DNA of 30,376 bases from a virus: the IMG/VR virus record IMGVR_UViG_3300032053_000347, positions 1-30,376 of that record. One strand, given 5' to 3'. The notes under the pieces are model-generated. The model did not search any database. It was given only the letters and a program-made list of their open reading frames with translations, and was not told where the DNA came from. Position 1 is the stretch's first letter. Each line of letters begins with the position of its first letter. Below are positions 3,196 to 22,158 of the stretch, piece by piece. Both the position numbers and the translations under genes were made by a program.

Positions 3196-6100
3196 TAACC
3201 TCATCAATGGGAATGGGAGAGCCAGAAAAATTAGATAACCAAGTGCTAGAGCCAGAAGAGATATCTTCCCCTGAAAACATTGAAGCTGACGCAGCTCACA
3301 GCCCTAGCACGTCATATGCGCTAAATGTTGATATGTTACAGCCTTTAAGTATCCCAACTGAACGTCCTTTTATGCCAGAATTACCGCCCGACGCGCCCGT
3401 ATTTGGAGCCGTATTTAGACGTCGCAATATTATCGGAAACTTGATTAATTCTACTGACTTTAATGAATTTGATAATCCAGATTTAAATGTGCCTGATTAT
3501 AATTATATGGATTACATCCCGTTAGACTTATATGACAAGCACGGTGATAAGTACGTAGCTACAAAGAATCCAACGCATGCAGAAGCCTTGACAGCACAAT
3601 TAAGGGCAGAGGAAGTGGATAGCGAGGCAATGGCTAACAGCCCTTGGCGCTCTATTGGCTCATCTTTAGTGCAGCTTCCAACAGACCCAACTCTATTGTT
3701 TCCTGGTGGGATCTTATTTAAAAGCGCTAAAGCAGCGGCAGGGATAGCAAAATCTGCATTATCCGTTAGTAAGGCGGCTATGGGAGCGGCAACCATAGAG
3801 CAAATAGTAAAACATCAAACGCAATTGACGGCAGAAATAGATGACTCTATGTACGAAATTGTTGGAGCTGGACTAGTTGGTGGCGTGATTGGCGGCCTCG
3901 GTGGTGCTTTTGCACACGGTCCAATATTCAACAAAGCTAAGAAAGAAGTTACAGCGCTTATGGCTGATGATGCCCCAGTAGGCCCTAAGCTCACACCAGA
4001 GCAAAGTTTATCAGCCGCTAAGGTACGAGACCCAGCACTAGAGAAAGATCTCAATAGCCTTTATGGCGGGTCCGTAACAGCGGCTGCGGGCAAATTCCTT
4101 GGGTATACAACCAAATGGCTAACTCCTATGAGCCGGCTTATATTTTCCCCATTTGGGTCATCTCGGGCTGTTATCAATGAAATGGTTGAGCATAATATGA
4201 TATTAAATGCCAACCTTCCTGGAAAACGAAAATTACTTAATCCAGACGGTTCTTATGCGGAAGTCGAGCGTGCTGCTATGCCAAAAGGCATATCTGTTGA
4301 ATCAGAAATAAAAGCGGCTAAACGTGGCATGCAGAAATTATTAATTGATTATCAGGATATATTTTACAAACAGGCAGGGATTAATAAAGGTCCTTTTAAA
4401 ATTGCTCGAACTGTATTAACAGAGCACGAAGGATTAAAGCTAGAAGATTTTGAAAAACAAGTTTGGCGTAGCGTTGTAACGGGAAAAGAAAGTGAGAACG
4501 CAGCAGTAAGACAGGCGTCAGATTTAGTTGTTAATAAATTTTTTGAGCCCGTTAAACAAGAATATATAAGGCTTGGTGTATTTACACCGGACGTATCAGT
4601 AAAAACAGCAGCTAGTTATTTTATGCGGGTTTATAATAAAAAGAAATTGTTAGATCCAACAGGACGAGCAAAAGCCCACGCTAAATTTGAAGCTTATATA
4701 AAAAGAAATGATGAAATATTAAGAGATTTAAAACCGCAAATTGATGCTATTCAAAAAGAAATCGCATTATTAAAAAAATCAAAGAAATCTAAAGGCAGAG
4801 GCAAATTACTTAAAGAAGCTGAAAAAAGATTGGGTGCGCTTGTTCCTGATTCCTTATTGACAAGCAAGGGTAAGATACGTGAAATAATGGATCCCGATTA
4901 TTACGGCATAGAGGCCGATAAAATAATCGATAACATTATTGGCATGGGTGAAGATAAGAATTTAAACCCTATTCTTGCATCACTTCCTGGCGGCAAACCT
5001 AACGTTCTTAAAGAGAGAAAATTTCTCATTGATGATATTGAAATAGAAGATGAGTTGGTTACCTCATTCTTAGACGTCGCCCCCATGTTCATGAATGCTA
5101 CAGCGCCTAATATCGCCATGCTGAGATATGCCGAGCGATTAGGAATAGAGGGCTCTAACGTTAGAGGATTTAAGATTCAGGCGCTAGAAGACGACTACAA
5201 AGCAGCGGTTGAAGCTAATCCTAGCAAACAACAAAAGCTTTACAAGAAATATCAGAAAGATAAAAAAGATATTAATGCGGTCTTTGACATGCTTGGCGGA
5301 ATCTATGGCGGCGGTGTTAATGTCATGGACGCGACAGGCGCTAAATTTGTAAAGAACTTGAGCAACTTTAATTATTTACGTCTCATGGGGCTTGTGACAT
5401 TGTCAGCGCTTCCTGATATAGGCTCAATCGGAATGAAGCAAGGCTTCTTTAGAGTCATATGGGAAGGATTGGTCCCTATGCTTAAAACTTTGGAGCATGG
5501 CCACTATGATAAAGACCTGCTAAAAGATTTGGCATTCACGTGCCATACAGCTCAGGGGTACAAGCTCAAGGGAATGATGGAGCAGGATGTAGGCGCGAAT
5601 GAAATGGGAATGCTCGATAGAGCGCTGACAGCCACAGATAAAGGTTTGTCTTACATGTCTCAATCATATGGCAATGCGAATTTAATGAATAAATGGACTG
5701 ACACCATGGAGTTCATAGCTGGTAAGACTTCTATTGGGCGAACATTAAGAGCTATTAATGATTGGAAAACCACTGGGACGATTAAACCGAAAGAGGCTAA
5801 CAGGCTCAATGAGCTGGGCATATCGCCAGAGAATTATGAAATTATTCATAAGCAAATGAAGAAGCATGGCGGGAAAACGAACGGAAGCTATTGGGTTAAC
5901 TATTCAAAATGGGATAGTGACGACGCTTCATTAAGAGCTTTTGCGGAGTTCAAGCGAGCTATTACGCGTGAAGTAGATGCGACCGTTGTTAATCAGGCAC
6001 CTATAGGCGGAAAGCCGTCTTATTCTCACACGACTTGGGGAAAATTAATATTCCAGTTGAAGGGATATAGCTATGCGGCGACCTCTAGAATGCTTATTCC

Positions 6101-14728: not shown

Positions 14729-15205
14729 ATGATATTTCATATGCAAATGAAGAATCGCGTTATACGCCCTGCATTAAAGGCTTGCAACCTATGGTCAAGC
14801 GAGGCTGAAATGTTGGTATCAGGGACTGGATATGTAGAATCTGGATATATATATCTAAGTCAGAATCCTGGCATAGCACTTGGTTTTTTTCAGGTTGAGC
14901 CACAGACCCATTTATTTCTAAAACAATATTTAAACCAACCGCGCAATATAAAGATTAAAGCTAATATCCTAAACGCTTGTGAGATGAGCAGTTTACCCGG
15001 CGATGAGCAGCTGGTCTATAACATGCGTTATGCTGCAATCATGTGCAGAGTACGCTATCTCAATGCAAAGCCCTGTATACCCTGTTGGAATGATGCAATC
15101 GCAATGGCGGAATATCACGCAAAATGGTACAATCGGGGTGGAAAGGCTGACGTTGCACAAAATACAATTATATTTAAACAATTAATAGATGGGGTAAAAA
15201 AATGA
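14729..15205 (+). CDS. Lysozyme-like peptidoglycan hydrolase (probable endolysin)
   Basis: A 158-aa protein that resembles a phage lysozyme-like family: LVSGTGYVESGY (candidate catalytic Glu37), then a Q...G.ALGFFQVEPQTH block at 45-61 and a C-terminal MRYAAIMCRVRYL and AEYHAKWYNRGGKAD block that I recall from such phage proteins. There is no signal peptide. It lies next to a small membrane protein with an ATGA overlap, which fits a lysis cassette. It might instead be a virion-associated wall hydrolase, since the large ejection protein lacks the gp16-type transglycosylase domain. The ribosome site is weak (AGGA about 15 nt upstream), so ATG at 14741 or 14747 are alternative starts. Confidence 0.7.
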   Translation: MIFHMQMKNRVIRPALKACNLWSSEAEMLVSGTGYVESGYIYLSQNPGIALGFFQVEPQTHLFLKQYLNQPRNIKIKANILNACEMSSLPGDEQLVYNMRYAAIMCRVRYLNAKPCIPCWNDAIAMAEYHAKWYNRGGKADVAQNTIIFKQLIDGVKK

Positions 15206-16850: not shown

Positions 16851-17252
16851 TTAGAATGGTAGCGAATCTCCAAAGTCATACGGTATAGAATTATCTTGCT
16901 TATGTTCACTAGGCGCTGCATCTGATTTACCGCTTAGCATTTGCATATTATTAGCTATGATTTTAGTTGTATACCTTGTAATGCCATCTTTCTCATATTT
17001 TTCAGTCTTGAGACTACCCTCGATATAGACCTTAGAGCCTTTGATTACGTAGGCCTTAATAATTTCGGCAAGCTTACCAAAAGCTACGACGTTATGCCAT
17101 TCGGTTATCTCTATCTGCTCGCCTGTCTCGCCAGATTTGCGTTTAGACGATGTAGCCAAAGATAGATTAACAACCGGGGGACGCCCCCCCGATTCATGGA
17201 TATCTATCTTTCCCACATTTCCTATTAGAATTACTTTATTAACACCTGCCAT
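16851..17252 (-). CDS. ssb: Single-stranded DNA-binding protein
   Basis: A 133-aa OB-fold SSB. It begins MAGVNKVILIGNVGK, carries EWHNVVAFGKLAEI at 51-64, KGSKVYIEGSLKTEKYEKDG at 71-90 and a C-terminal acidic tip ending DFGDSLPF, the usual docking tail for partner proteins (compare DDDIPF in E. coli SSB). The frame extends upstream to 17303, but AGAGGAAAT just before the ATG at 17252 and the family N-terminus fix the start here. It is shorter than cellular SSB (about 178 aa), mostly through a short linker. It shares an operon with the ERF gene and should coat the single strands that ERF anneals. Confidence 0.95.
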   Translation of the reverse strand: MAGVNKVILIGNVGKIDIHESGGRPPVVNLSLATSSKRKSGETGEQIEITEWHNVVAFGKLAEIIKAYVIKGSKVYIEGSLKTEKYEKDGITRYTTKIIANNMQMLSGKSDAAPSEHKQDNSIPYDFGDSLPF

Positions 17253-17640: not shown

Positions 17641-18303
17641 TTACTGCCCACTTGGTCGATTATCCATAACATTCTTTAACCAGACCTTTACCTGGTTTTC
17701 TGAATGGTTCCAGATAACCTTCTTTTCAGATTCAGCGAAAGACTCAAAAAAATCAATAGAGCCGAGCTTGTCATCATCTTCATAATGTTCTTTTAGGCAA
17801 TTAATAGCCTCGAGCATTTCCTTGCTAGGTTGTGGTGGCGTCGGTAATCGGGTAGGTTCAGGACGTGGAGCAGAGGGCGCAGGAGCAGCCTTTGGCGTTT
17901 CTTTCTTTGTTCCAAACCCTGTGCCACCTTCTCCGCAGTCATCTTCACCAAAAAGTCCCAGAATTGACATCAAGGCATAACGTCTAGCATAAGTTATCGA
18001 ACTACCTACTGCATGGGCTTTATTTTGTCCATTTCCAATCGGCATTTTTAACGTATTTGAAATGAATTCGCCGGATTCGTGAAATAGAACAGTTTCTAGC
18101 AAAACTTCATTACCCGACACCTCCGGGCATTGTACTAAAGATAATTTTTGGCTAGACAACATAGGTCTTACTATTTCCAATATCTGCCCTAAATTTGCGT
18201 AATCATATTGATGCGCCTGTATGTTATTTTTAGGGTTATAAACTTCCCCTTGAAATATACTAAGAGACTTAGCTAAATTAACTATTGATTCTGAACGGTT
18301 CAT
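17641..18303 (-). CDS. erf: ERF-family single-strand annealing recombinase
   Basis: A 220-aa protein of the ERF superfamily (type: P22 Erf). N-terminal domain about 1-125: YDYANLGQILEIVRPMLSSQ at 33-52, LLETVLFHESGEFISN at 68-83, MPIG near 87, then the signature SSITYARRYALMSILGLFGEDDCGE at about 101-125. A proline/alanine-rich linker at about 138-160 leads to a small C-terminal domain. ERF proteins form rings that anneal complementary single strands, helping circularise terminally redundant DNA and build concatemers. It is the second gene of the leftward operon (ATGA-type overlap with the 63-aa gene) and lies with ssb and, across the divergent region, the replication gene. Confidence 0.93.
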   Translation of the reverse strand: MNRSESIVNLAKSLSIFQGEVYNPKNNIQAHQYDYANLGQILEIVRPMLSSQKLSLVQCPEVSGNEVLLETVLFHESGEFISNTLKMPIGNGQNKAHAVGSSITYARRYALMSILGLFGEDDCGEGGTGFGTKKETPKAAPAPSAPRPEPTRLPTPPQPSKEMLEAINCLKEHYEDDDKLGSIDFFESFAESEKKVIWNHSENQVKVWLKNVMDNRPSGQ

Positions 18304-18491
18304 TTTGGGGTCCTTAAGTTTTTAGTTAGTACACCATATTCGTTAGAAGCCGATCTGAGCTCTAACTTACCAATTTTTATTCTGTCAGGGCAATCAACTA
18401 AATAATGATCGTCTTCGTGTCCTGGAAGGCATGTTAGGGCCTCTCTGCTGTCTTCATCTCTGTCATCTGGCTCGCGTCTGTCGTAATACAC
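18300..18491 (-). CDS. First gene of the leftward operon, small unknown (63 aa), GTG start
   Basis: A 63-aa hydrophilic protein with an acidic, Arg-rich N-terminus (YYDRREPDDRDEDSREA), a CLPGHEDDHYLVDC segment that has two Cys and two His in a possible metal-binding arrangement, and a basic C-terminus. The start codon is GTG at 18489-18491, with GAGGAG 8 nt upstream. It overlaps ERF by 4 bp. It lies just below the strong promoter at 18528-18555, so it is probably the first early product made. The function is unknown. Confidence 0.6.
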   Translation of the reverse strand: MYYDRREPDDRDEDSREALTCLPGHEDDHYLVDCPDRIKIGKLELRSASNEYGVLTKNLRTPK

Positions 18492-18506
18492 CTATCTATC
18501 TCCTCT

Positions 18507-18535
18507 TTGTTATGATAAGATAGGCTCATTATAGC
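18507..18535 (+). promoter_or_regulatory. Possible rightward promoter overlapping the leftward one
   Basis: On the + strand: TTGTTA (18507-18512), 17 nt, TATAGC (18530-18535). Each box has four of six consensus bases. Its -10 box overlaps that of the leftward promoter, so the two could not be used at once. It would give a leader of about 30 nt before the regulator gene at 18573. Weaker and less certain than the leftward promoter. Confidence 0.4.
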
Positions 18536-18555
18536 AAATTGAAATCACATGTCAA
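18528..18555 (-). promoter_or_regulatory. Strong sigma-70 promoter for the leftward early operon
   Basis: On the - strand: TTGACA (18555-18550), 16-nt spacer, TATAAT (18533-18528). Both boxes match the bacterial consensus perfectly. Transcription would begin near 18521 and read the 63-aa, ERF and SSB block. This is the best promoter I see in the window. Downstream, CCTATCT and AGATAGG (18491-18497, 18518-18524) form an inverted repeat around the ribosome site of the first gene, which could act as an operator or a leader hairpin. Confidence 0.85.
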
Positions 18556-18572
18556 CTAAAATGGGAGGAAAT

Positions 18573-18776
18573 ATGGAAAGTGCATCTATTTATCCAGATA
18601 ACAGGATGATTTACAGAGAGCGTGATTTATCGCGCCGTCAATTTAGCATTAGGATTGGTGCAGAGTTGCTCGAAAAGATTAGGGCTGAAGCACGTCGGCT
18701 CAGGACATCGCCTTCGATTTTTATCGAAGATGCTTTGATTGATAAGATATCGTCGGCTGTTAAAGTAGAAGAGTAG
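18573..18776 (+). CDS. Ribbon-helix-helix (Arc/CopG-type) regulator
   Basis: A 67-aa protein with the plan of a ribbon-helix-helix DNA-binding dimer: a strand RRQFSIRI at about 21-28, helix A (AELLEKIRAEARRLR), a turn TSPS, and helix B (FIEDALIDKI). The start at 18573 follows GGGAGG closely; an in-frame ATG at 18549 has no ribosome site. It is transcribed away from the strong leftward promoter with only the 81-nt shared region between, so it probably represses that promoter or its own. Arc and Mnt of P22 are the classic phage examples. The operator is not identified. Confidence 0.82.
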   Translation: MESASIYPDNRMIYRERDLSRRQFSIRIGAELLEKIRAEARRLRTSPSIFIEDALIDKISSAVKVEE

Positions 18777-18982
18777 TAAAAGCCCTGCGATCGCTGTTCA
18801 CACCAAAGCAGGGCAGTACCTGGGATGACTCAGGTATAGACAGTATATAGAAAAATTTAAGATCTTTAGGGTTATCTGATAGGATAATCAAGTTTTAAAA
18901 AAGTTCAGCGCCATCAATCCGAAGTTTCGCGGCCGAAGATTGATAGCGCTTCCATCGGTCCATGAATAAAAGGTAAGCTCTA
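18777..18982. other. Structured AT-rich non-coding region, candidate replication origin
   Basis: This 206-nt gap between the regulator and the replication gene contains three inverted repeats: GCCCTGC/GCAGGGC (18782-18788, 18808-18814), TACCTG/CAGGTA (18817-18822, 18831-18836) and AGCGCcATCAATC/GATTGATaGCGCT (18907-18919, 18938-18950; 12 of 13 positions pair). Between the second and third lies an AT-rich stretch, about 18837-18905. None of the hairpins has a following U tract, so they do not look like simple terminators. Hairpins, an AT-rich stretch and an adjacent initiator-like gene suggest an origin or a regulatory leader. I see no clear iterons. Confidence 0.45.
18907..18950. repeat. Long imperfect palindrome upstream of the replication gene
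   Basis: Two 13-nt arms pair at 12 positions, with one C/A mismatch, around an 18-nt loop that itself contains alternative short pairings (CGAA with TTCG twice). It lies 33 nt upstream of the ATG at 18983. It may be a binding site for the winged-helix protein, an origin hairpin, or a leader structure controlling translation. Confidence 0.6.
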
Positions 18983-19978
18983 ATGTTCGCAAAGATACCC
19001 GATAGATTAATCCCAGTCAATAGCTACCTGCCTAAATGCAATAATAAATATCAAGATCCTGACAACAAACCCTATAGACGGCTATCGAAAGAAAACTTTA
19101 TTACATCTCATGACAAAAAACGGGAATGGATAAAGGAAACTAAATTAAGGTTAGCTTTAGATAATAATGAGTTATCAGTCTTAAATGCCCTTGCTTTTCA
19201 AACAGATCCTATAACTGGGGTTGGACGTCCAACTATTCTAACGCTACTGAAAGACATCCATGTATCAACGTTATCCTATCGTACAGTCATCAGGGTTCTA
19301 GATAGATTGGCTATTAAAGGCGCTATCACTAAAGAGCGAGGCCCTCGTATCTTAAAGGATTGCGTATGGACATCAAGAAATCATTATAGTCTTATTGGTT
19401 ATGAATTTAAGTTGCCGTTCAAAAGTGACAATGTGTCATGTAGTCTTAACTCCCCATTAACTAAAGTTAATAAGGATCATAATCATATACGCGAGCGTGA
19501 TGATAATGATTTATCAGCTTCGCCTCAGGGGGGAACAGAAGGGGAAAAAGAGGCTGATAAGGTAATCACATCTTCAGCCAATAAAGAATTAATCGCAAAA
19601 CTAGAAAAATTGCGTACACACACAGCGTTAGCTGAAAGGCATATACGCATGTATGGGGAGGCTATAGTCGAAAAGGCTTACAAGATGAGCGATGCTCCAG
19701 GCATTAAAAATCGAGGCGGATATATAACAAAGATTTTGCCAACCATCACGGAGGATGATATGGACAATAGTAAGCAGACTGCTAACGCATATAGTAGGGC
19801 TTGTACAATATCTGACAAAGCAGTCGCTCTTGCACAGGCAACAAAGATATTAGCTAGCAAGGGCATAGAAGACCCGATTTTTGATCATTCATTAACGCCA
19901 AAAGAACGATACGTTAAAACGAACGAATATAATTCTCAGCGATCAAGTTTAGCTATGCAACTAGAGAATGGAAGTTAA
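18983..19978 (+). CDS. Winged-helix replication initiator-like protein
   Basis: A 331-aa protein. Residues about 58-140 form a winged helix: NNELSVLNALAFQTDPITGVGRPTILTLLKDIHVSTLSYRTVIR is helix, loop and recognition helix, followed by LDRLAIKGAITKERG and the beta wing, as in the N-terminal domains of phage replication proteins of the lambda O / helix-turn-helix_36 kind. A charged linker (about 165-195) precedes a helical C-terminal domain. No helicase or polymerase motif is seen. It is therefore probably an origin-binding protein that recruits host replication enzymes. Its upstream region has strong hairpins. It starts the rightward early block of small unknowns. Confidence 0.7.
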   Translation: MFAKIPDRLIPVNSYLPKCNNKYQDPDNKPYRRLSKENFITSHDKKREWIKETKLRLALDNNELSVLNALAFQTDPITGVGRPTILTLLKDIHVSTLSYRTVIRVLDRLAIKGAITKERGPRILKDCVWTSRNHYSLIGYEFKLPFKSDNVSCSLNSPLTKVNKDHNHIRERDDNDLSASPQGGTEGEKEADKVITSSANKELIAKLEKLRTHTALAERHIRMYGEAIVEKAYKMSDAPGIKNRGGYITKILPTITEDDMDNSKQTANAYSRACTISDKAVALAQATKILASKGIEDPIFDHSLTPKERYVKTNEYNSQRSSLAMQLENGS

Positions 19979-20648: not shown

Positions 20649-20689
20649 GGCCTATATGCCATAATGTGCTATCAGACAAAGGATGGCAC

Positions 20690-20953
20690 ATGGACGTAAA
20701 AAGCTTACAGCAAATCTGTGCAGAGCGTGCAGTAGCGTATCTCAAGAAACATGGGATAGTTTACCCTACCTACGACCCAAAACTAAGTCGACAAGCTAAT
20801 TATATGGCAATGGTAGAATATCGCATAAAAGAATCTGCGCTCACTATCGAATATCTATCAGCACATAACACATCTAACGTAACCAATATCAATCAATTCA
20901 AGAAAGTATTACAACCTGTCAAATCTTGGGGAACGGCTTACAATGACAAATAA
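20690..20953 (+). CDS. Early unknown protein (87 aa), related to the gene at 19984
   Basis: The frame opens at a GTG at 20666, but AAGG at 20679-20682 lies 7 nt before the ATG at 20690, which gives MDVKSLQQICAERA. The AxxYLKKHGIVYPTY block and the following Tyr-rich helix resemble the 124-aa protein two genes upstream. Its end overlaps the next gene by 11 bp. The function is unknown. A small family of related early proteins may assist replication or act on the host. Confidence 0.58.
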   Translation: MDVKSLQQICAERAVAYLKKHGIVYPTYDPKLSRQANYMAMVEYRIKESALTIEYLSAHNTSNVTNINQFKKVLQPVKSWGTAYNDK

Positions 20954-21257
20954 TTATACCATTATCCCTGAGGTTATCAGTAAATCTAGAAAGACCGTAT
21001 TAGATAGGGTAATTAAAAGATATATGGATAGATATGTTAAAGAGGTTTTTGGAAAAGATTATAACCCTACTGAGTGCATATACATCACACAGAATGTGAC
21101 GCGACATTTATCAAGTATGTTGTTAACATCAGCAATGTATTTAGATAATCAAACACCGACTAGTGTATTTAAACATTTAATGGACGAGTTATTACTAAAA
21201 CACGGAATGAGTATAGTAATTAATGAAGACGTACCAAAATCTATCATTATCAACTAA
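20943..21257 (+). CDS. Early unknown helical protein (104 aa)
   Basis: A 104-aa helical protein, with GGGGAA about 10 nt upstream of the ATG and an 11-bp overlap with the preceding gene. The part YITQNVTRHLSSMLLTSAMYLDNQTPTSVFKHLMDELLLKH is similar in pattern to FIHEITTYSSLLLISLFDDMDIPTDETFEKFMRR in the 90-aa protein at 21462, so they may be distant paralogues. No motif of known function. Confidence 0.58.
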   Translation: MTNNYTIIPEVISKSRKTVLDRVIKRYMDRYVKEVFGKDYNPTECIYITQNVTRHLSSMLLTSAMYLDNQTPTSVFKHLMDELLLKHGMSIVINEDVPKSIIIN

Positions 21258-21465
21258 TCAAAAATTTATTGATATGCGAGCAAACGAATTGCTCGATATT
21301 ATTATCGTGTTAAATCAAAGATTATTAAAAGCGGGTTGTAAATTTAAGAATATTAACGAAGTCGAAAGAGTTAAATTGCGACATGATGACGAATATAGAG
21401 CATCAATGGCTAAAATAGAATACGAAAGATGGGTTAAATCTAGCGTTTATGGGAAAAAAATATGA
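21223..21465 (+). CDS. Early unknown protein (up to 80 aa), start uncertain
   Basis: The open frame from 21223 overlaps the previous gene by 35 bp. A second Met at 21274 would give a 63-aa protein (MRANELLDIIIVLNQRL) with no overlap; neither has a good ribosome site. The shared part is helical and charged (KAGCKFKNINEVERVKLRHDDEYRASMAKIEYERW). It ends with ATGA into the next gene, which supports translation of this frame. The function is unknown. Confidence 0.5.
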   Translation: MKTYQNLSLSTNQKFIDMRANELLDIIIVLNQRLLKAGCKFKNINEVERVKLRHDDEYRASMAKIEYERWVKSSVYGKKI

Positions 21466-21734
21466 ATTGTGACGTAGACCATGAAAAAATGATGGAACTA
21501 ATTTCAGATTTTAAAAAATCTTATCGTAATATCGCGACAGAAAAATGTAAAAATGACGATGAGATGTTTGTATTTATACATGAGATAACAACATATTCAT
21601 CTTTGCTGTTAATATCATTGTTCGATGACATGGATATCCCAACAGACGAAACTTTTGAAAAATTTATGAGACGGACTCATGACAAGTACAAGGAAGAATT
21701 TGCAAATCATGGATGCGAGCAGCGAACACACTGA
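21462..21734 (+). CDS. Early unknown acidic helical protein (90 aa)
   Basis: A 90-aa acidic helical protein (MNCDVDHEKMMELISDFKK...), overlapping its neighbours at both ends (ATGA upstream; 26 bp with the nuclease). GGGAAAA lies before the start. It shares a hydrophobic TxxSxLLLxSLxxDxxxPTxxTFExFM pattern with the 104-aa protein two genes upstream. The function is unknown. Confidence 0.55.
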   Translation: MNCDVDHEKMMELISDFKKSYRNIATEKCKNDDEMFVFIHEITTYSSLLLISLFDDMDIPTDETFEKFMRRTHDKYKEEFANHGCEQRTH

Positions 21735-22158
21735 ACAAGTTTGGTTTTTCAGATGGTTAAAGGTAGCGCACCCGAAGGTATGGGGGGTGGCTTACGCAGT
21801 GCCTAATGGCGGCTATCGCTCACCCATGACGGCGGCCAACCTAAGGGAAGAAGGGGTTAAATCTGGCGTCCCAGATATTTGCATTCCTGTTATCAGGGTA
21901 TCTCGAAATAATTCATCACCCGCGCTATATATCGAAATGAAACGCAAAGGAACGACTGGCAAGCCAAAGGGAACGCTTACACAACCTCAAAAAGAATTTA
22001 TGGTAAAGCTTATCGAGGCCGGGAATAGCGTACGGCTTTGCTATGGGTCCGAAGAAGCTGAAGCGGTTGTTAATGCGTATTTGATTAAGGACTATGAAGC
22101 CGATTTTGCATTATATGATGATAGGCTTAACAATATATTGGGGTTAGTTAATAACTGA
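21709..22158 (+). CDS. VRR-NUC domain nuclease
   Basis: A 149-aa single-domain VRR-NUC protein (PD-(D/E)xK fold). In order: EHTEQVWFFRWL near the start, AVPNGGYRS at 30-38, LREEGVKSGVPDICIP at 45-60 with the catalytic Asp56, LYIEMKRKG at 73-81 with Glu76 and Lys78, then TQPQKEFMVKLIEAGNSV and CYGSEEAEAVVNAYL. Stand-alone phage VRR-NUC proteins are thought to cut branched or Holliday-type structures, which fits processing of replicating DNA before packaging. The start at 21709 follows AAGGAAG; the in-frame ATG at 21679 is less likely. It is the last early rightward gene before the terminase. Confidence 0.9.
   Translation: MDASSEHTEQVWFFRWLKVAHPKVWGVAYAVPNGGYRSPMTAANLREEGVKSGVPDICIPVIRVSRNNSSPALYIEMKRKGTTGKPKGTLTQPQKEFMVKLIEAGNSVRLCYGSEEAEAVVNAYLIKDYEADFALYDDRLNNILGLVNN

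Follow-up and report, generated by a model that had tools for sequence, protein, structure and literature searches.

The 206-nt gap at positions 18777-18982 most likely encodes a leftward antisense RNA of the sar/OOP kind, predicted from the sequence to act against the leader of the following 331-aa gene; we give this reading about an even chance. The gap is part of a stretch of 30,376 nt (IMG/VR virus record IMGVR_UViG_3300032053_000347), which was analyzed as a whole and is referred to here as the window. It is located between a gene for a ribbon-helix-helix (RHH) regulator of the CopG/Arc type and the 331-aa gene, which are both orientated rightward. Stems within the gap, U tracts on the minus strand, terminators in three related phages and the geometry of a promoter at the start codon were directly observed and are described below. 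The coordinates of all features are given in Table 1.

Table 1. Features of the gap and its surroundings (window positions unless a relative is named)
Feature	Position	Strand	Remarks
Leftward early promoter, TTGACA-16-TATAAT with TG	18528-18555	-	12/12 consensus match
RHH (CopG/Arc-type) regulator gene	18549-18776	+	Pfam RHH_1, E 9.9e-5
H1, terminator-like hairpin plus UUUU	18778-18814	-	-17.1 kcal/mol; 1 nt beyond the RHH stop codon
H1 arms	18782-18788/18808-18814		7 Watson-Crick pairs
H1 counterparts	L003 4038, L005 3562, L006 4622	leftward	
H2 hairpin	18817-18836	+	6 Watson-Crick pairs; 9 pairs counting G-U on the plus strand
AT-rich stretch	18837-18906	none	24% GC
H3, possible first leftward terminator	18897-18950	-	13-pair stem, then GAACUUUUUU; -22.0 kcal/mol
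H3 arms	18907-18919/18938-18950		12/13 positions paired on the plus strand
Predicted leftward RNA, long form	18778-18985	-	~208 nt, stop at H1; from promoter and terminators
Predicted leftward RNA, short form	18897-18985	-	~89 nt, stop at H3
Ribosome-binding site (AAGG) and ATG of the 331-aa gene	18970-18985	+	opposite the 5' end of the predicted RNA
Gene of the 331-aa winged-helix protein (probable replication initiator)	18983-19978	+	homologs in L003 and L006
Candidate leftward promoter, TTGACT-17-TATCTT	18992-19020	-	start near ATG+2 of the 331-aa gene; rank 4/99

Structure of the gap

The gap contains three inverted repeats (H1, H2 and H3), one with 12 paired positions, as well as an AT-rich stretch flanked by stems, all at the place where the original prediction had put them. 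These elements are real and represent structure beyond chance. Three stems with at least 6 Watson-Crick pairs were counted compared to a mean of 0.73 in shuffled sequences (P 0.033), and two stems with at least 7 pairs compared to a mean of 0.18 (P 0.010). The AT-rich stretch is among the lowest 3.5% in GC content of all 70-nt windows. The z-score of the RNA fold was -2.58 on the plus and -3.33 on the minus strand (estimates of -2.1 to -2.6 and -3.3 to -3.5, respectively), with the greater excess over shuffles on the minus strand. Only one of the eight intergenic gaps of more than 100 nt in the window, namely this one, had a z-score below -2 on either strand. Among 34 tiles of 206 nt, two were as low as -2.58 on the plus strand and none was as low as -3.33 on the minus strand.

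Such structure could also belong to the rightward mRNA, as a leader with a role in mRNA stability, in processing by RNase III or in the control of translation in cis, with no antisense RNA involved. The plus-strand z-score fits this explanation, and so does H2, which pairs better on the plus strand because two of its pairs are G-U there. Furthermore, the leader of the relative L003 folds as well (z -2.30 on the plus and -2.57 on the minus strand). However, the first stem in the window, L003 and L005 has a 5' A tract and no 3' U tract, like leftward terminators, and the ribosome-binding site is not covered by any stem. We consider a structured leader quite improbable.

No tRNA was detected. Rfam gave no match at the gathering cut-off in the window, L003, L005 and L006, and none with an E value up to 5 in the region 18500-19100. 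The pattern of H3 had no match elsewhere in viral contigs. A simple scan found no rightward terminator in 18200-19200; a looser scan gave rightward hairpins at 18319 and 18718, each inside genes. Separately, a strong G-rich/C-rich inverted repeat is located near 17111-17205 within the SSB gene (-20.8 kcal/mol on the minus strand).

Leftward terminators in the window and its relatives

According to the original prediction, none of the hairpins has a U tract. This is correct for the plus strand only. On the minus strand H1 is directly followed by UUUU (18781-18778) and H3 by GAACUUUUUU, i.e. GAAC plus UUUUUU with the U's at 18902-18897. Additionally, the one C-A mismatch of H3 on the plus strand is a G-U pair on the minus strand, where the stem is therefore unbroken over its 13 pairs. 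Based on the U tracts, this G-U pair and the larger fold excess of the minus strand, H1 and H3 look like leftward terminators. Weak points are that H1 has no more than four U and a loop of 19 nt, and that 4 nt separate the U tract of H3 from its stem.

For comparison, a scan for a hairpin plus TTTT was applied uniformly to the window and its relatives L003, L005 and L006, which had been reached via terminase similarity. Strong leftward terminators were found at the junction in four of the four phages read (window 18781; relatives in Table 1), whereby the junction intervals were fixed only after the window and L003 had been inspected, and the case of L006 is partly circular, since its interval begins at its own terminator because the upstream ORF reads through the hairpin. 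The whole scans gave 6 minus-strand terminators in the window, 8 in L003, 2 in L005 and 6 in L006. No rightward terminator was found by the same scan at the four junctions. The junction terminator has a U6 tract in L003 and a U8 tract in L006, where it is the strongest in 18 kb. The distance from the stop of the upstream gene to the beginning of the U tract is at most 12 nt in the window, L003 and L005. An 8-codon ORF of L003 (4099-4125) overlaps a second leftward terminator-like hairpin in its leader.

The count of four does not include L001 (the window itself), L002 (starting right of the junction), L004 (beginning just left of the terminase and holding no replication region), L007 and L057 (the same contigs as L003 and L005, respectively), the terminase relatives L010-L012 and L017-L056 and the ERF relatives L058-L063.

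Termination alone might be the purpose of these elements: H1 and H3 would keep stray leftward transcription out of the RHH gene and of the ERF/SSB operon, which runs leftward on the left of the gap, and no functional RNA would be made. The terminators are indeed the best conserved part (4/4), and the position of the promoter is not kept in L003. On the other hand, the only leftward ORFs on the right side of the gap are small and unsupported, which leaves no clear gene for a leftward terminator to end, and H3, H2 and the fold excess are more than a bare terminator. Overall, we regard this explanation as unlikely.

A direct search with the 331-aa protein gave no matches in viral contigs, phages and plasmids, and a search with the alignment of its family found L003 only in viral contigs and none in genome contigs. 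L003 carries, in this order, SSB, recombinase, RHH, an extra gene (137 aa), the leader and the 331-aa homolog. It is the sole clear relative that shares the genes on either side of the gap, and its leader and that of the window do not align; a AGATCTTT...ATAGGAT motif common to both was spotted by eye only. L005 carries ERF and SSB and is without a 331-aa homolog, which is present in L006. Among further terminase relatives, named phages of Vibrio and Alteromonas as well as contigs from spring water have different replication regions by annotation. In L002 the genes corresponding to window positions 20666-22158 are near-identical (95-100% aa), while a different gene is found to the left and the terminase is only 73% alike, which points to mosaic joins at about 20360 and about 22200.

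The 331-aa gene and the leftward promoter at its start codon

From reading the sequence, an ATG at 18574 after GGAGG is the likelier start of the RHH gene. The full-consensus leftward promoter at the start of this gene is probably the early left promoter driving the ERF/SSB operon.

The 331-aa protein had no match to a Pfam or PHROG family and none to an O-like family. Its homologs share 36% over 127 aa (L003) and 30% over 105 aa (L006). The homolog of L006 weakly matched a replication initiation PHROG (E 0.0045), with a primase-like gene (E 1.2e-11) located behind it, and in the window SSB and ERF genes are located near the 331-aa gene. Two structure predictions of the 331-aa protein had a mean pLDDT of 44.8 each. 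The alignment-based one, of low confidence, showed the order of elements expected of a winged helix (helix-helix-helix-hairpin), whereas Foldseek gave no match below E 0.1 for the models and no clear initiator fold. Based on the indirect evidence of the match of the L006 homolog, the primase-like gene following it, the nearby SSB and ERF genes and the winged-helix order, the protein is a probable replication initiator.

Leftward promoters were searched with a simple sigma-70 score, taking the best site per interval. For the window, the RNA predicted from the best site starts at ATG+2 relative to the 331-aa gene, and the -10 element ends at ATG+9. The best site of L006 (TTGACT-16-TAAAAT) has a predicted start at ATG+0 and a -10 element ending at ATG+7, which compares to ATG+6 for Psar of P22. 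Against shuffles, each site taken alone, P was 0.22 for the window (not significant), 0.06 for L006, 0.03 for L003 and 0.15 for L005. Ranked among 99 gene starts of five phages, L006 was in position 2, lambda pO 3, the window 4, P22 pO 5 and Psar 7. These starts comprised 31 chosen genes of the window (with the RHH start at 18574), 40 annotated plus-strand genes of P22, 4 genes of lambda, and 10 ORFs of L006 and 14 of L003 picked from ORF lists; L005 as well as the P22 genes esc, 13' and the origin-crossing gene were left out. The top rank was taken by a leftward site at 20943 of the window (CTGATA-16-TATAAT), which has no known antisense RNA, and therefore the score has false positives. Furthermore, the TTGACT common to the window and L006 reads Val-Asn on the other strand and could reflect conservation of the protein.

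The start of the homologous gene in L003 ranked only 84 of 99, i.e. the promoter at the start codon is absent. The best leftward promoter of L003 is located about 147 nt upstream of the ATG, and its RNA would therefore miss the ribosome-binding site. As controls, the same scans recovered tO and pO of lambda, the oop terminator and promoter of P22 and Psar; the real sar terminator was missed because it has no TTTT run.

The original prediction had named an origin or a regulatory RNA. The second part is retained with the strand reversed, since leftward terminators and a promoter at the start codon put the RNA on the strand opposite to the one implied. For an origin, the window gives no support. 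Such an origin would use the AT-rich stretch for unwinding and the stems or nearby sequence for binding of the 331-aa initiator, and the leftward transcript would activate it. The AT-rich stretch is present, and for lambda PMC3985674 and PMC3349717 describe that pO activity affects replication from ori-lambda. However, iterons were found neither in the leader nor in the 331-aa gene, and a clear initiator fold is missing, as mentioned above. The proposed check for a GC-skew minimum did give a detrended minimum at 18562, but it moved to 12589 after correction for gene orientation; it tracks the switch in gene orientation, which explains it.

Repeats are present in two of the relatives. L006 contains a 34-bp repeat in 4.1 copies (4768-4907), ending right before the 331-aa homolog, which is a candidate origin. 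In L005 four palindromic 17-bp repeats follow the terminator; they are located inside 3552-4787, a region of ~1.2 kb that separates a wHTH-like gene from the following gene, lacks any long ORF and had no Rfam match. Many short tandem arrays, including an 11-mer in 10 copies, were further found at 5859-6735 of L005. Judging by the junction repeats in L006 and L005, the group may have an origin here, across which the leftward transcript would run. For the gap itself we rate the origin as improbable.

The predicted antisense RNA and related control systems

In the preferred reading of an antisense RNA, RNA polymerase would start at about 18985 from the promoter at the very beginning of the 331-aa coding sequence and proceed leftward through the leader. 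It would stop at H3 after ~89 nt or, on readthrough, at H1 beside the RHH stop codon after ~208 nt. According to the fold prediction, the complement of the ribosome-binding site falls in the unpaired 5' tail of this RNA. On the rightward mRNA of the 331-aa gene, both the ribosome-binding site and the start codon would be complementary to this tail, and pairing may block translation of the mRNA of the probable initiator or cause its cleavage. Through the terminators, the leftward transcript would in addition be prevented from entering the RHH gene and the ERF/SSB operon, which runs leftward. We infer all three of production of the RNA, its action on the 331-aa gene and the identity of this gene as an initiator from sequence features.

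The closest layout is the arc-sar-ant region of P22 (see PMC12197685). In the P22 annotation arc ends at 15022, sar is located leftward at 15021-15090, Psar at 15097-15125, and ant starts at 15091. Both gaps directly follow an RHH gene (in L003 the 137-aa gene intervenes), both have the terminator at the upstream stop codon and the RNA, in the window a predicted one, opposite the downstream ribosome-binding site, and a leftward promoter within the opening codons of the gene that follows is found in the window and L006 as in P22, but not in L003. In contrast to P22, where the target is the antirepressor gene ant, the proposed target here is a probable replication initiator, without a match to an ant family. 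The RNA of P22 has 70 nt compared to the predicted ~89 or 208 nt, and the contig of the window has no integrase or HTH_3 match. The sequences were compared via Rfam only, with no match.

OOP of lambda and P22 (pO-tO) is likewise a short leftward RNA with a leftward terminator, located between a regulator (cII/c1) and replication genes; in lambda it is antisense to cII, as stated in PMC3985674 and PMC3349717. Differences to our region are that OOP overlaps the 3' end of cII whereas H1 lies after the RHH stop codon, that pO lies just before O whereas the candidate promoter is inside the 331-aa gene, and that the lambda iterons are inside O whereas none were found in the 331-aa gene.

Antisense RNAs against the leaders of rep genes are furthermore known from plasmids, i.e. 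CopA of IncFII, RNAI of ColE2 and RNAIII of pIP501. By description, the RNA predicted here resembles them in being directed against the leader of an initiator gene. Attenuation of the pIP501 type does not fit, as the leader has no rightward attenuator terminator.

In open-licence PMC text no paper was found on such an RNA before a podovirus initiator. Neither integrase nor HTH_3 repressor had a match in the contigs of this phage group. Antisense RNAs of the sar and OOP type are best known in temperate phages, in which they tune lysogeny decisions.

A more general proposal is possible, if doubtful. In podovirus-like phages, a sar-like antisense RNA at the ribosome-binding site of the initiator may hold back the start of replication. 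Phages would exchange the regulator, the repeats and even the initiator of a module that consists of regulator gene, leftward terminator, origin repeats and initiator gene, but the leftward RNA of the module would be retained. Lytic-looking phages would thereby have a plasmid-style control of copy number. An RNA of the predicted layout before a probable initiator would bring control of the sar/OOP type to the timing of replication in phages that lack recognised lysogeny genes. The combination of a leftward terminator at the stop of a regulator and a leftward promoter at the next ATG also offers a simple rule by which such RNAs could be searched for in uncultured phages.
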